Positions 3,160 to 56,533 of a DNA stretch of 64,000 nt are shown here, in pieces. This DNA comes from Variovorax sp. RA8 (GTDB lineage: Bacteria > Pseudomonadota > Gammaproteobacteria > Burkholderiales > Burkholderiaceae_C): the NCBI RefSeq assembly GCF_901827175.1, contig NZ_LR594662.1:5146001-5210000 (forward strand), given 5' to 3'. The stretch's first letter is position 1. Each line of letters opens with the position of its first letter. The position numbers were made by a program, and so were the translations under genes. The notes beneath the pieces were generated by a model. It was not told the origin of the DNA. It worked only from the letters and a program-made list of their open reading frames with translations, and made no database searches.

Positions 3160-4146
3160 TCAGTCCAGGTATTCGCCCTTGGCCTTGAGGGCCGGCACGT
3201 CGTCGCGGATGCCACGCGCAATGAGCGCGGCGACGGCTGCGGGCGTTGCATCGGCAGGTGCGGGCAGCTCGACGCCCAAGCCCTCCATCTGCTTGCGCAG
3301 AGCCGGATCGGCGACCGCCTGCTGCAACGCGCTCGTCAACGTCGCGAGCACGGGCTGCGGCGTGCCACGTGGAGCGAAGAAGGCGTTCCAGGAACGCACA
3401 TCCAGGGGATGACCCGCTTCCGTCGCGGTGCCGACATGAGGCAGCTGCTTCAGGCGCGCACCGGACAGTACCGCGATGGCCTTGATGCGCCCACCTGCGA
3501 TCTGCGGCAGTGCGGTGGTGGTCTGATCGCACATGAAATCGGTCTGGCCACCCATCAGGTCGTTGACCGCGGGCGCGACGCCCTTGTAGGGCACGTGGGT
3601 GACGTTCCGGGCCATGGAAGACAGCAACAGCACACAGCCGTAGTGCGATATGGACCCTACACCGGCGCTGCCGTAGGAGGCCTTGTCCTTGTTCTTAGCC
3701 AGCCAGGCGCCGAACTCACGCAGGTTGCTGGCCGGCAGGTCCGCGCGGGCCAGCAGCAGCATCGGTGCTGCGCCTGCGGGACCGATGGGCGCGAAATCGG
3801 CGGCGGGGTCATAGGCCAGCTTCTTGTAGAGGGCGATATTGGCGACGTGCGTACCGATACCCCCGAACGAGATGGTGTAGCCATCAGCGGCGGCCTTGGT
3901 GGCCTTGGTCAAGCCGATGACCCCATTGGCGCCGCCGAGGTTCTCGATGACGATGGGCTGGCCCAGGGGGCCGGCCATCTTCTGCGCGACGGCGCGGGCC
4001 AATGCGTCGCTCGGACCACCGGCCGGGAAAGGAACGATCAGGGTGACCGGGCGGGCCGGAAATGCCTGGGCGATGGCGCCGGGCGCGGCAAACAAGCTGG
4101 CACAGAGGGCGGCAAGGCCAGCGGCCAGGCGAAGGAAGCGGATCAT
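3160..4146 (-). CDS. Bug-family tripartite tricarboxylate transporter solute-binding protein
   Basis: A 328-residue periplasmic protein. The ATG at 4146 is preceded by an AGGAG ribosome site and starts a clear signal peptide (MIRFLRLAAGLAALCASLFA, cleavage near AIAQA). The mature N-terminus FPARPVTLIVPFPAGGPSD and the GSAGVGSISHYG stretch are hallmarks of the Bug/TctC receptors that are greatly expanded in Burkholderiales. Bug proteins bind carboxylates or similar small ligands; many lack a dedicated membrane partner, and no TctA/TctB gene is visible here. It sits between the HAD and aldolase genes, so its ligand may be the substrate of this operon. Confidence 0.9.
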   Translation of the reverse strand: MIRFLRLAAGLAALCASLFAAPGAIAQAFPARPVTLIVPFPAGGPSDALARAVAQKMAGPLGQPIVIENLGGANGVIGLTKATKAAADGYTISFGGIGTHVANIALYKKLAYDPAADFAPIGPAGAAPMLLLARADLPASNLREFGAWLAKNKDKASYGSAGVGSISHYGCVLLLSSMARNVTHVPYKGVAPAVNDLMGGQTDFMCDQTTTALPQIAGGRIKAIAVLSGARLKQLPHVGTATEAGHPLDVRSWNAFFAPRGTPQPVLATLTSALQQAVADPALRKQMEGLGVELPAPADATPAAVAALIARGIRDDVPALKAKGEYLD

Positions 4147-16401: not shown

Positions 16402-16453
16402 AAAAGTGGTGCGGCTGGCAGGATTCGAACCCACGACCCCTTGGTTCGTAGCC
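16402..16453. repeat. attL: displaced 3' part of tRNA-Arg
   Basis: These 52 bases are identical to 56482-56533 in the intact tRNA-Arg(ACG) gene. They include the encoded CCA, T-arm and anticodon, and the identity stops 4 nt past the anticodon. The two copies bound the prophage as direct repeats. Here only the 3' half of the tRNA remains, so this is the native chromosomal end left behind by integration. Confidence 0.95.
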
Positions 16454-40706: not shown

Positions 40707-42113
40707 TCAGCGTGTGCTGATCATTCGGTTCCGGTACTTCAGGGGCTTCAGCGGCTTCGGCGGGGCGCCGAGCTCAGCGAAGGTCAGCAGCCAGGCGTCC
40801 GCCCGGTTCGGGCTCTTCACGCCGCGGGCCTTGAGCTCGGGCTTGCCTTCGACCTTGATAAGGCCGTTGCTCAGGATCGTGTACGTGGGCACGGTCAGCT
40901 CGGCGATCGTGTCCTCGTCCTCGCAAAGCTTGCAGTCCTTGGCTTCGAGCCACTCGCGGCCCTTCCACCAGAGTTCATCGCGCAACCGGTTGAACTGGCG
41001 TTCCTCGTTGTCGTTCACCGCCTCGGCCTCGGCCACGTTGACGCCGACAACCGGCAAGCCCAGTTCCTGGAGTCGATCGACCACGCCGGCACCGATACCG
41101 ATGACATCGACGTTGATGGCCTGCGGTCGCTCAGCCTCGGGAGTCTTGTCCCACTCGGCTTTGATCAGACCCGCGGTCTGCATGGTGTCCTTGCCCCACC
41201 ACTCTTCCACCGGTGCGAGCTGGTGATTGCCCTTGCGCTTCGCCAGAGCCGAGCTGTCGTCGCCGAAGCGGGCCACGTCCACGCCCCAGACAACCGCGGC
41301 ACTGGCGATCACCGCCACTTCGCGGATCTTGGCCGCCTCGCAGAGCTCCAGCGAGATCACTCCATCAGGTGCGCCCACAAACTCCCCCTTGACGCGGACC
41401 TTGAAGACCGAGCTTTGCCGCCCGTACTTCTTGGCCATGTTCTCGATGTAGGCCCGGGACACCATCGGGCTCTTCTCGCCATCCCAGTGCAGCGCAGCCC
41501 AGGCGCCGCGCATCTTGTGGTGCGAGTCGAAGAAGTAGCCGCTCTGCCGGGTCGGATTGGCCGCCATCACGACGAAGGCGCCATCGGTGGACAGCGCACC
41601 CTCTGCGACCTCGAACACGTTGTCGCTGACGCCCGAGGCCTCGTCGATCAAGAACAGGATGTTCTCGGCGTGGAAGCCCTGCAGCGCCTCCGGCCGCTCC
41701 GGTCGCGAGGTGCGCGCCACTGAGAACGATTCGTTCGGCGCCGCCGCCATCCGGAACGCACCGGCGGACCAGACGAACTGACCGCCCAGGGCCGGATACT
41801 TCTCCTTCATGGTCCGATGCCACTTGGCGATCTCGGACCACAGTACGTCTTCAAGCTGGTGCGCCGTGGGTGCGGTCGCCGGCACCTTCGCCGGGAAGTA
41901 GCACGCCAGGAACCACAGCACGCACCAAGCCATGAACGTTGACTTGCCCGTGCCGTGACCCGATCGGATCGACACGCGGCGAGTCTTCACCAGGTGGCGG
42001 CTGGCATCCCACTGCTGATCCGTCGGATCGGCACCCAGCACTTCCTGCGCGAAGAGTGCCGGGCCTCCCTCACGCCACCGGAGGACGGCCTGCTGTGTTG
42101 GACTGAGCGCCAT
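40707..42113 (-). CDS. Terminase large subunit
   Basis: 468 residues. The ATPase domain has Walker A SIRSGHGTGKSTFMAWCVLW and Walker B ENILFLIDEASGV, with the coupling motif VVMAANPTR. The nuclease domain begins at VVWGVDVARFGDDSSALAKR, whose aspartates bind metal; NVDVIGIGAGVVDRLQ carries another conserved Asp. It packages DNA into the prohead. The start overlaps the small subunit by 44 bp. Confidence 0.95.
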   Translation of the reverse strand: MALSPTQQAVLRWREGGPALFAQEVLGADPTDQQWDASRHLVKTRRVSIRSGHGTGKSTFMAWCVLWFLACYFPAKVPATAPTAHQLEDVLWSEIAKWHRTMKEKYPALGGQFVWSAGAFRMAAAPNESFSVARTSRPERPEALQGFHAENILFLIDEASGVSDNVFEVAEGALSTDGAFVVMAANPTRQSGYFFDSHHKMRGAWAALHWDGEKSPMVSRAYIENMAKKYGRQSSVFKVRVKGEFVGAPDGVISLELCEAAKIREVAVIASAAVVWGVDVARFGDDSSALAKRKGNHQLAPVEEWWGKDTMQTAGLIKAEWDKTPEAERPQAINVDVIGIGAGVVDRLQELGLPVVGVNVAEAEAVNDNEERQFNRLRDELWWKGREWLEAKDCKLCEDEDTIAELTVPTYTILSNGLIKVEGKPELKARGVKSPNRADAWLLTFAELGAPPKPLKPLKYRNRMISTR

Positions 42114-42468
42114 TCAGTTCCGCCAGCTCTTCGGCGAGGCTGCGGGTCTTGATCTCCCCGGAATGCTCGATCGCCGCCAGGCGCGGATGGATGTACGGAG
42201 CCGCGTCCTTTGCGATGCCCGATGCCTCGATCATCAAGTCAAGCGGCACCAGGTCGCGCTCGGCGTCGCTTACCGCGGCGGCCCGCAAGTTGTCGAAGCG
42301 ACCGACCAGGGCGCGCATGGTCTGCAGCATCACTTCAAGCGGGGTCAGGCCTTCTTCGGCTGCCTTGTCCGCGATCTCGCGCGTCCTCTTCGTCGCCGCT
42401 CCAGCTTTGCGACCGGCGTTCTTCCGAGCACCACCGCGCTTTGATTTCGTTTGATTGTTTTCAAACAT
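42070..42468 (-). CDS. Terminase small subunit
   Basis: 132 residues. The N-terminus is basic (QTKSKRGGARKNAGRKAGAA), typical of DNA-binding small terminase subunits. A helical body follows (LTPLEVMLQTMRALVGRFDN, DLVPLDLMIEASGIAKDAAP). It recognises the packaging start site and recruits the large subunit, whose gene overlaps by 44 bp. Confidence 0.85.
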   Translation of the reverse strand: MFENNQTKSKRGGARKNAGRKAGAATKRTREIADKAAEEGLTPLEVMLQTMRALVGRFDNLRAAAVSDAERDLVPLDLMIEASGIAKDAAPYIHPRLAAIEHSGEIKTRSLAEELAELNGAQSNTAGRPPVA

Positions 42469-43245: not shown

Positions 43246-43307
43246 TGGTTGCGATGGCCAGGCTCGAACTGGCGCCCCCCGCGCGCTACCTACTGCGCTA
43301 CACCGCG
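43246..43307 (-). other. tRNA-like element without an anticodon arm
   Basis: 62 nt on the minus strand. The acceptor CGCGGTG/CATCGCA has six pairs plus a C1:A72 mismatch. The D-arm is GCGC/GCGC with loop AGTAGGTA, the T-arm is a perfect GCCAG/CTGGC with loop TTCGAGC, and the 3' end is ACCA. The D- and T-arms are joined by only 9 nt (GCGGGGGGC) where a normal tRNA has about 23, so the anticodon arm is missing. C1:A72 plus ACCA recalls initiator tRNA. The surrounding 43022-43392 contains no gene. Confidence 0.6.
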
Positions 43308-43392: not shown

Positions 43393-43584
43393 ATGCTCAC
43401 TTCACATCCCAAACTCGCGCTAGCCGAAGGCGCTACCGAATCTGCCCGGGCCCAGATCAACGCCATTGCGGTGGCGCCGAATGCTGACCCCGATACAGTC
43501 CAGGCGCTGAAGGATCTCTGCTCGGCGACCGAGTACATCCTGCATGTGCTCAAGGATTGGGAGCAGAAGGTCAACAGGCAGTAA
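43393..43584 (+). CDS. Hypothetical protein (63 aa)
   Basis: ATG preceded by GAGGAC. The product is a small helical protein (KLALAEGATESARAQINAIA, LKDLCSATEYILHVLKDWEQ). It and the next gene (9 bp downstream) form a short plus-strand pair. No family recognised. Confidence 0.55.
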   Translation: MLTSHPKLALAEGATESARAQINAIAVAPNADPDTVQALKDLCSATEYILHVLKDWEQKVNRQ

Positions 43585-43593
43585 GGGTCGGCG

Positions 43594-43893
43594 ATGGAAG
43601 AAGCAAAATTTGCGGACGTGCCGCCTATGGACTGGGGTATGGCTGCGGTCCAGAGCCTCATTGCAACGCTGGTAACGCTGCAGCGCAATGGCGTCCTGCA
43701 AATTTCAGATGTCGTATCTGAAATTGGCAACACGATCGATTATCGGACTCAGCATTTCCCGGAGCGACGAGCCAAGGACCAAGTTCTCCAGCACGTTTAC
43801 GAGATGATGATGCTGGCCGACAAGAACGAAGCGGAGCTTGCCGCGTTGAAAGCCAAGCGCGACGCAGCTGGAGGTCTGCCTCCCTCGAAATGA
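43594..43893 (+). CDS. Hypothetical protein (99 aa)
   Basis: Helical protein with DWGMAAVQSLIATLVTLQRN, an EIGNTIDYRTQHF segment and a C-terminal coiled coil (EMMMLADKNEAELAALKAKR). It is followed immediately by a hairpin. It forms a pair with the 63-residue gene. No family recognised. Confidence 0.55.
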   Translation: MEEAKFADVPPMDWGMAAVQSLIATLVTLQRNGVLQISDVVSEIGNTIDYRTQHFPERRAKDQVLQHVYEMMMLADKNEAELAALKAKRDAAGGLPPSK

Positions 43894-43895
43894 GA

Positions 43896-43917
43896 AAGCC
43901 GCCTCAGTGGGCGGCTT
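43896..43917. terminator. Hairpin after the plus-strand gene pair
   Basis: An 8-bp perfect stem, AAGCCGCC/GGCGGCTT, with a 6-nt loop starts 3 nt after the stop codon. It lacks a plus-strand T run; on the minus strand it is followed by TTTCTC. It could act on either strand, weakly. Confidence 0.5.
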
Positions 43918-44034
43918 GAGAACCCAAAAGGGCGAGCTCATCCATCAAAGGTTGAGCTGCTCTTATTTTTCCCGGCTCACCCGGGATTTGGACAGGTCCG
44001 GATATTGTACCGAGCGGTAGAGTATTCGCAAGCA

Positions 44035-44553
44035 TCAGTCCATGAGATCGCGCAGTTTCCTCATTGCAGCAGGGCCCGCTTCAGCCTGGCTCTTCTCCAT
44101 TTGCGCGATCAGCCATCTGGCGAGCTCGCGCTGCGGCGCGGGGAACTGACGCTCGAAGGGGACCTTCCCCTCTCCGAGGCACGGCTTGCACTTCTGCGTG
44201 CCGAGCGTTTTGGTGCCAGGAATCAGGGTGACGCCATGGCCGCCACAAGGCTTGCAGGTGCCGTCCCTATGCCAAGCGAGGCACGCCCTGGCCATGTCCA
44301 CCGCCTGAACACGATTGAGCTTCACTCGGAGCCCACGCGCCTGCTTCCAGACCTCGTCCGAGAGGAGCTCAACGATCTGAACGGCCGCCGAGTTGTCCCC
44401 GCAGAAGAGGCGCTGCAGCGCTGCTGCCAGTGGCTCGTGCTTCGCAGCCAAGCCCATCGCGCCCAGGACATCGGTATCCGACATCGTGGTGCGCGGGTCG
44501 CTCTTGAGGTTCGCGGATCGAACGGCGCTGGCATAGCGCTCAATGATCTTCAT
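44035..44553 (-). CDS. Q-like late antiterminator candidate with DnaJ-type zinc finger
   Basis: 172 residues. Two CxxCxGxG-type units (CKPCGGHG and CKPCLGEG, about 20 residues apart) form a zinc finger like those of DnaJ and of phage Q-type antitermination proteins. The N-terminal part is helical (DPRTTMSDTDVLGAMGLAAK). It is the last gene of the replication operon and lies just upstream of the late genes, exactly where a Q gene is expected. The function is inferred from motif plus position. Confidence 0.7.
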   Translation of the reverse strand: MKIIERYASAVRSANLKSDPRTTMSDTDVLGAMGLAAKHEPLAAALQRLFCGDNSAAVQIVELLSDEVWKQARGLRVKLNRVQAVDMARACLAWHRDGTCKPCGGHGVTLIPGTKTLGTQKCKPCLGEGKVPFERQFPAPQRELARWLIAQMEKSQAEAGPAAMRKLRDLMD

Positions 44554-56481: not shown

Positions 56482-56533
56482 AAAAGTGGTGCGGCTGGCA
56501 GGATTCGAACCCACGACCCCTTGGTTCGTAGCC
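56482..56533. repeat. attR within tRNA-Arg
   Basis: 52 bp identical to 16402-16453. The repeat covers the 3' half of the tRNA gene up to 4 nt beyond the anticodon, so the phage restores a complete tRNA on this side. Confidence 0.95.

Follow-up and report, generated by a model that had tools for sequence, protein, structure and literature searches.

A tRNA-like element without an anticodon arm in the late region of a Variovorax prophage, a possible RNase P processing site

Introduction

Transfer RNA genes carried by phages are usually explained by codon supply. The acceptor, D- and T-arms of a tRNA and an encoded ACCA also serve as recognition features for bacterial RNase P and for the enzymes that act on the tRNA 3' end. 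RNase P cuts other phage RNAs, according to one review (PMC11143913), and GOLLD RNA is often found near tRNA islands, according to a paper on that RNA (PMC12286853). The tRNA-like domain of tmRNA is described in two papers as the upper half of a tRNA without the anticodon (PMC3985003, PMC3929946). A literature search, with most subscription papers outside its reach, returned no published account of phage tRNA-like elements that lack the anticodon arm.

The element described here is encoded on the reverse strand of a 64,000-nt stretch of Variovorax sp. RA8 (contig NZ_LR594662.1, positions 5,146,001 to 5,210,000), referred to below as the window, whose own numbering is used throughout.

Anatomy and detection of the element

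The element measures 62 nt (43246-43307, reverse strand) and was delimited with the Rfam tRNA model RF00005 and a scripted cut of its sub-parts. It starts with the acceptor 5' strand CGCGGTG (43301-43307), followed by the dinucleotide TA and by a D-arm made of the stem GCGC, the loop AGTAGGTA and the stem GCGC (43283-43298). A 9-nt link, GCGGGGGGC (43274-43282), leads to the T-arm, i.e. GCCAG, the loop TTCGAGC and CTGGC (43257-43273), and the element ends with the acceptor 3' strand CATCGCA and an encoded ACCA (43246-43256). Six of the seven acceptor pairs, the four D-stem pairs and the five T-stem pairs are formed, and position 1:72 is an open C:A. The acceptor with its C1:A72 and ACCA, the perfect D-stem and the T-arm with TTCGAGC are as described in the original prediction, and the scripted cut confirmed the 9 nt between D- and T-arms. 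The anticodon arm is absent, as seen from this spacing of the two stems and from the lack of an ARAGORN call.

With lax filters, RF00005 matches the element at 40.1 bits (gathering cutoff 29; E = 4.1e-7 for 501 bases searched). Neither the default Rfam scan nor ARAGORN reports a tRNA in it, so that armless elements are easily overlooked. At other armless loci, the default Rfam scan reported the element in 13 out of 17, labelled as a plain tRNA. The structural descriptor gives the element a score of 36, against a best score of 28 among the 19 matches of a shuffled control (1.72 Mb of loci, mononucleotide-shuffled once). A chance resemblance to tRNA was rejected on the RF00005 score and on this comparison. 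Identity with tmRNA was rejected as ARAGORN calls no tmRNA, and an att-site copy of a tRNA was rejected as the att repeat is located elsewhere. The element is a tRNA homologue without an anticodon arm. Its folding energy (minimum free energy -22.8 kcal/mol) does not surpass that of dinucleotide shuffles (z 0.85), and the corresponding fold comprises the expected arms and a 2-bp hairpin within the link.

Two sets of tRNA traits can be read in this anatomy. The unpaired 1:72 position (C:A), a trait of initiator tRNAs, is present; the three G:C pairs beside the anticodon loop, another initiator trait, are missing with the deleted 3' strand and are present in the related gene described below. The anatomy of an RNase P substrate is present as well, with an ACCA of the RCCA type, six of seven acceptor pairs and a 5-bp T-stem.

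Origin from an intact phage tRNA

The sister prophage of Variovorax sp. WDL1 has, between the same two genes, an intact tRNA-Met(CAT) called by ARAGORN. This gene reads CGCGGTG...CATCGCA-ACCA and has the anticodon stem CGGGG/CCCTG. The two copies align with an identical 5' part, save for the D-loop, through the 5' strand of the anticodon stem, after which a 14-nt gap opens. Relative to WDL1, the window copy thus lacks 14 nt (CTCATAACCCTGAG or an equivalent shift) and one D-loop nucleotide, and differs by a few substitutions. One T-stem pair is C-G in WDL1 and A-U in the window, and the T-loop differs too. The 9-nt link is the deletion scar: it retains the 5' anticodon-stem strand CGGGG, and the arm was therefore not excised as a unit. 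The 'clean internal loss' first proposed is inexact, given this half stem left behind.

Given the intact gene at the matching place in the WDL1 prophage, the window element almost certainly derives, on this alignment, from a deleted initiator-type phage tRNA; the original prediction had named a deleted initiator tRNA as its plain alternative, and as to origin this was correct. An error of sequencing or assembly, with the true gene being an intact tRNA, would agree with the rarity of the form. It is hardly credible given the additional differences from WDL1 in the D-loop, in the T-stem, where the change is paired, and in the T-loop, and given a genome assembled in 4 contigs with 99.99% completeness.

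A search with the element and its flanks matched 4 of 61 genomes, its own included, and WDL1 was the sole other match to span the element. Variovorax JS1663 has a similar late region with no tRNA at the corresponding place, which indicates that the element is dispensable, and a further genome of the genus (G003) has sequence matches just 3' of the element without a tRNA call. With the tRNA intact in WDL1 and none in JS1663, the armless form is kept in neither.

How private the window form is

The short-link tRNA pattern was found in one genome out of 101 searched within the genus, in three out of 299 within the family and in one out of 399 within the order, these sets overlapping. The sole match in the genus and order searches is the window element, and the other two family matches have broken acceptors. 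Covariance model R1 was dropped as a genome-wide discriminator, intact tRNAs matching it as well (299/299 genomes). In IMG/VR, the same type of D-arm occurs in 38 stretches, assigned to tRNA-Met (36), to Val (1) or left undetermined (1); none of these 38 phage initiator-type matches is armless, and no exact match was found in that database to a pattern that joins this D-arm type to a short link. The element, searched as DNA against deposited phages and plasmids, gave partial matches that cover no more than 11% and 35% of the query. The armless derivative of the window looks private on these searches, and this copy may or may not be under selection.

These observations would suit an inert pseudogene, i.e. 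a deleted phage tRNA on its way out with neither a processing nor any other role. Phage tRNAs are often dispensable, the sisters have an intact gene (WDL1) or none (JS1663), the window form was not found elsewhere by pattern and the deletion left half a stem. Against it, all outer stems are unbroken despite the other differences from WDL1. Such a pseudogene is a serious possibility, somewhat below an even chance, and nearly as likely as selection for an RNase P site.

Prophage and late-region setting

A perfect 52-nt repeat (16402-16453 and 56482-56533) includes the 3' end of a tRNA-Arg(ACG). Its two copies are likely the attachment sites of a prophage of about 40 kb that contains the element. 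Upstream of the element lies a gene for a 172-aa protein (44035-44553, reverse strand), named Q-like by position, with similar ORFs in WDL1 and JS1663. The protein has no match in Pfam, PHROG or PDB (a single PDB row, E 1.5), and its CxxC..CxxC motif is what we take as a Q-like mark. A promoter-like site, TTGCGA-16-TACAAT (44004-44031, reverse strand), found by consensus scan, is a putative late promoter. The scan recovered it in WDL1 and not in JS1663, and chance alone would give 0.4 sites of this kind per region. An inverted repeat, CTACCG..CGGTA, is present between its hexamers. A terminator-like hairpin 3' of this site (43896-43917, reverse strand) was found by the same kind of scan in the window and in neither WDL1 nor JS1663, with 1.4 expected by chance per region. 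The three prophages align through both sites and have in common TTGC, CTCTACC, the -10 region and the stem AAGCCGCCCA..GGCGGCTTT. In lambda-type phages the layout is Q gene, late promoter and early terminator; by analogy, the arrangement of promoter-like and terminator-like sites supports the name Q-like for the 172-aa gene.

Two small ORFs of 63 and 99 aa, taken from the ORF list, lie between the promoter-like site and the element on the forward strand (43393-43893) and have no family match in Pfam or PHROG. Downstream, the element is followed by a leader of about 550 nt, a small ORF, the two terminase subunits (the small one putative) and a portal gene. The small subunit (42070-42468, reverse strand) is assigned by position; it matches phrog_15261, of unknown function, and has relatives at 76-87% identity in WDL1 and JS1663. 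The large subunit (40707-42113, reverse strand) matches phrog_2 at 1.1e-40. The predicted location on the late strand between a Q-like gene and the terminase is supported by the large subunit; the Q-like name stands on place and motif, and that of the small subunit on position. A transcript from the promoter-like site would run antisense to the two small ORFs, across the element and into the terminase and portal genes. No GOLLD or other known RNA was found upstream of the element.

Armless elements in other phages

A short-link pattern that allows links of 0-16 nt matches at least 119 stretches of viral contigs. Eighty-three rows were read, i.e. 80 listed viral loci, the window and two bacterial matches. 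Among these listed matches, all seven acceptor pairs are formed in 39 of 83 rows, for 0.09 expected at 0.375 per pair, and 46 rows have at least 6/7 acceptor and at least 4/5 T-stem pairs. The link measures 8-9 nt in 29 of these 46 good rows and is shorter than 7 nt in none; the 9-nt link of the window element is at the mode of the class, a point against the pseudogene. In its favour, broken short-link forms are common, since 28 of the 83 rows among the matches listed have four acceptor pairs or fewer. Links of 7-10 nt are seen in 17 of the 25 distinct forms of these broken rows, so that the link peak is not peculiar to working elements. A less selective phage scan (links 1-31 allowed) gave at least 151 matches; among those listed, 143 have a link of 23 nt and one has a short link, with 5/7 acceptor pairs. 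This suggests that link length is bimodal and that the armless form is rare among phage tRNAs.

Fifty-one descriptor hits (link 7-12, score of at least 34, at most 90% alike) were gathered in an alignment named A2. Changes on both sides occur at 12 of 16 pairs and 98.4% of the cells are paired, which is partly by construction, as the descriptor requires at least six acceptor pairs. The covariation in A2 is likewise partly circular, its members being chosen by pairing; the unfiltered 39/83 is independent of that choice. The window element shares the traits of the class, with paired outer stems and a link within 7-12 nt.

A trans-acting tRNA mimic was also considered, i.e. a mature CCA-ended RNA acting as a decoy for EF-Tu, the CCA enzyme, a synthetase or a defence enzyme that targets acceptor stems. 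The encoded ACCA, the D- and T-loops and the acceptor are all retained in the window element, and within the searches made the shape is linked to phages, as a decoy would have it. Against this, an encoded NCCA is confined, among the matches listed, to 4 of the 46 good rows, the acceptors are diverse (46 different ones among the 51 members of A2) with no common identity element seen, and C1:A72 is an initiator mark that disfavours EF-Tu. A mimic of this kind is improbable. The original prediction of selection for a tRNA mimic finds no support in the window copy, with sisters that are intact or empty, no exact IMG/VR match to its D-arm type with a short link and an arm in all 38 phage initiator-type matches; as for the shape, a kept outer-half tRNA is plausible, since armless elements recur with a preferred link of 8-9 nt and some of them persist despite divergence.

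The surroundings of the elements were compared in 64 non-redundant cases. The 45 nt upstream fold with z < -2 in 28% of cases, versus 10% of 62 segments further upstream, and the 45 nt downstream do so in 17%, versus 2% of 60 further downstream. A hairpin adjoining the element as a class feature is suggestive only. Beside the window element there is none upstream (z -0.2), and the downstream segment has z -1.9. The terminase family phrog_2 was found in 8 of 74 ORFs downstream and 3 of 75 upstream of armless elements, the ORFs being the longest 75 of 122, with one 1,997-aa ORF excluded, and the longest 75 of 165. An adjoining terminase was rejected as a rule, these counts showing a tendency only.

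Two side observations concern particular loci. On the T7-like contig L132, an abiF RNA match (1866-1964; 39.9 bits, cutoff 37) ends 4 nt before the armless element, between capsid-assembly-like and major head genes, and may be due to chance. Six related loci (L108, L129, L136, L141, L067 and L068) have a good D- and T-arm with a link of 10 and no full tRNA-type acceptor, and have GAGGTGTGTA in common 3' of their D-/T-arm segment.

Conservation of the armless form between related phages

Fourteen hand-picked pairs of loci were compared, the element being set against its 60-nt flanks. The element is more alike than both flanks in 11 of the 14 pairs, a weak tally since several of the pairs are not orthologous and resemblance is to be expected between any two elements of tRNA type. 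The exceptions are L106/L123, L120/L184 and L132/L163, the last pair being identical throughout. In L072/L185 the element is 93% identical and the flanks 60-92%; two of the four changes convert pair 1:72 from C-G to G-C and are thus compensatory (rough binomial p = 0.003, or 0.057 at 15% background). In L100/L183 the element is 100% identical and the flanks 49-88% (rough binomial 1.9e-12, or 6e-4 with a milder background). In L106/L123 the element is 98% identical, with a one-nucleotide difference in the link, for outer flanks at 61-88% and immediate flanks at 97-98% (rough binomial 7e-4). L120/L184 is the contrary case, with the element at 93.0% and the immediate flanks at 98.3%, every stem being still paired.

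The putative small terminase protein of L123, used as a query, retrieved five loci, two of which repeat contigs already compared (L218 that of L123, L219 that of L106). A further phage obtained through this terminase neighbour, L220, has kept the element, which there opens a run of tRNAs. In the more distant L221 and L222, another structured segment occupies the place of the element. This substitute segment (2406-2570 and 3565-3730, respectively) has a similar leader and a CACGA tail in both, and by reading can fold into an outer stem with two short hairpins. In the T7-like contigs L223-L228, of which L223 and L224 are the contigs of L087 and L088, the element comes after the major head gene; these contigs are mutually 95-100% identical and add little weight. 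From these comparisons, the armless form appears to be maintained under divergence in some phage lineages. Retention of the armless element despite divergence in some other phages is a further point against an inert pseudogene.

tRNA-type ends behind GOLLD RNA

In L143 (6773-7223), a GOLLD RNA (263 bits) is followed at 3 nt by the armless element, which lies ahead of terminase genes. A tRNA-type T-arm followed by the acceptor 3' strand was found after GOLLD (RF02032) in 14 of the 14 loci read, the T-arm starting 37-94 nt past the GOLLD 3' end, which was extrapolated in the seven loci where the match stops short. These loci are 13 named streptococcal phages, from 26 GOLLD-matching records, and L143; the phages are related and their tags fall into about five kinds, and L229 and L234 were left out as they have no GOLLD match.

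ARAGORN calls a tRNA at the tag in 6 of the 14 loci: one Phe, four Ser and one with the anticodon TTA, labelled 'Stop'. The eight other tags comprise the armless one, two that are scrambled with extra sequence and five that are Leu-like with a poor acceptor, the labels scrambled and Leu-like being given by reading and not by a tool. Past the two scrambled tags, a called tRNA-Trp lies further on. Javan565 has an intact tRNA-Phe at this site, and its acceptor, GGGAACA/TGTTCCC, resembles that of L143, GGGAATG/TGTTCCC; two of the seven pairs differ. At the GOLLD site, the tRNA-type end thus seems to persist while the anticodon may change or vanish, which suggests that the kept part may be a processing signal.

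Proposed role

The preferred reading, about as probable as its opposite, is that the window element is a decoding-dead phage tRNA that remains as an RNase P processing site in the late leader. An initiator-type prophage tRNA gene lost its decoding half through the 14-nt internal deletion. The late-operon transcript would most likely still be cut at the element, since the remaining arms and the ACCA carry RNase P recognition features, and on its anatomy the remnant is likely still an RNase P substrate within that leader. The cut would part a 5' late transcript of about 700 nt, antisense to the two small ORFs, from the terminase mRNA. The loss of the anticodon would cost nothing in such a role, and the recurrence of the stripped shape in other phages could be explained in this way.

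The broader proposal that many phages keep 'outer-half tRNAs' as RNase P punctuation, with the window element among them, is tentative and rather unlikely. These would arise repeatedly from ordinary phage tRNAs, with a link of 8-9 nt that preserves the elbow, and would cleave late transcripts and define the 3' ends of RNAs such as GOLLD. If there is a recurrent, partly conserved and non-decoding form of phage tRNA, some phage tRNA genes would be kept for RNA processing, and this would offer a testable account of tRNAs in late leaders and beside GOLLD RNA.

Comparison with known systems

The window element resembles phage initiator-type tRNA-Met genes (RF00005) in its C1:A72, in its outer arms and in its place, which is that of the tRNA in the WDL1 prophage, and differs from them in that it has no anticodon arm and cannot decode. 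The mascRNA-type tRNA-like RNAs, of about 60 nt with a reduced anticodon arm, are found 3' of a long RNA, a human nuclear lncRNA; they are similar in size and shape to the window element, without homology. tmRNA, with its greater length, its tag ORF and its pseudoknots, differs from the window element, where ARAGORN calls no tmRNA with a tag ORF. M3 RNA and C4 antisense RNA, as named in a review (PMC11143913), are phage RNAs processed by RNase P and share with this locus a phage transcript with an RNase P site; the window element differs in being a direct tRNA derivative, and its RNase P site is putative. The GOLLD-linked elements of streptococcal phages likewise place a tRNA-type acceptor and T-arm at the start of the late region, and differ from the window in having GOLLD directly upstream, where the window has neither GOLLD nor another known RNA. 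Among them, the tag of L143 is, like the window element, armless, with a 9-nt link and a position upstream of terminase genes.
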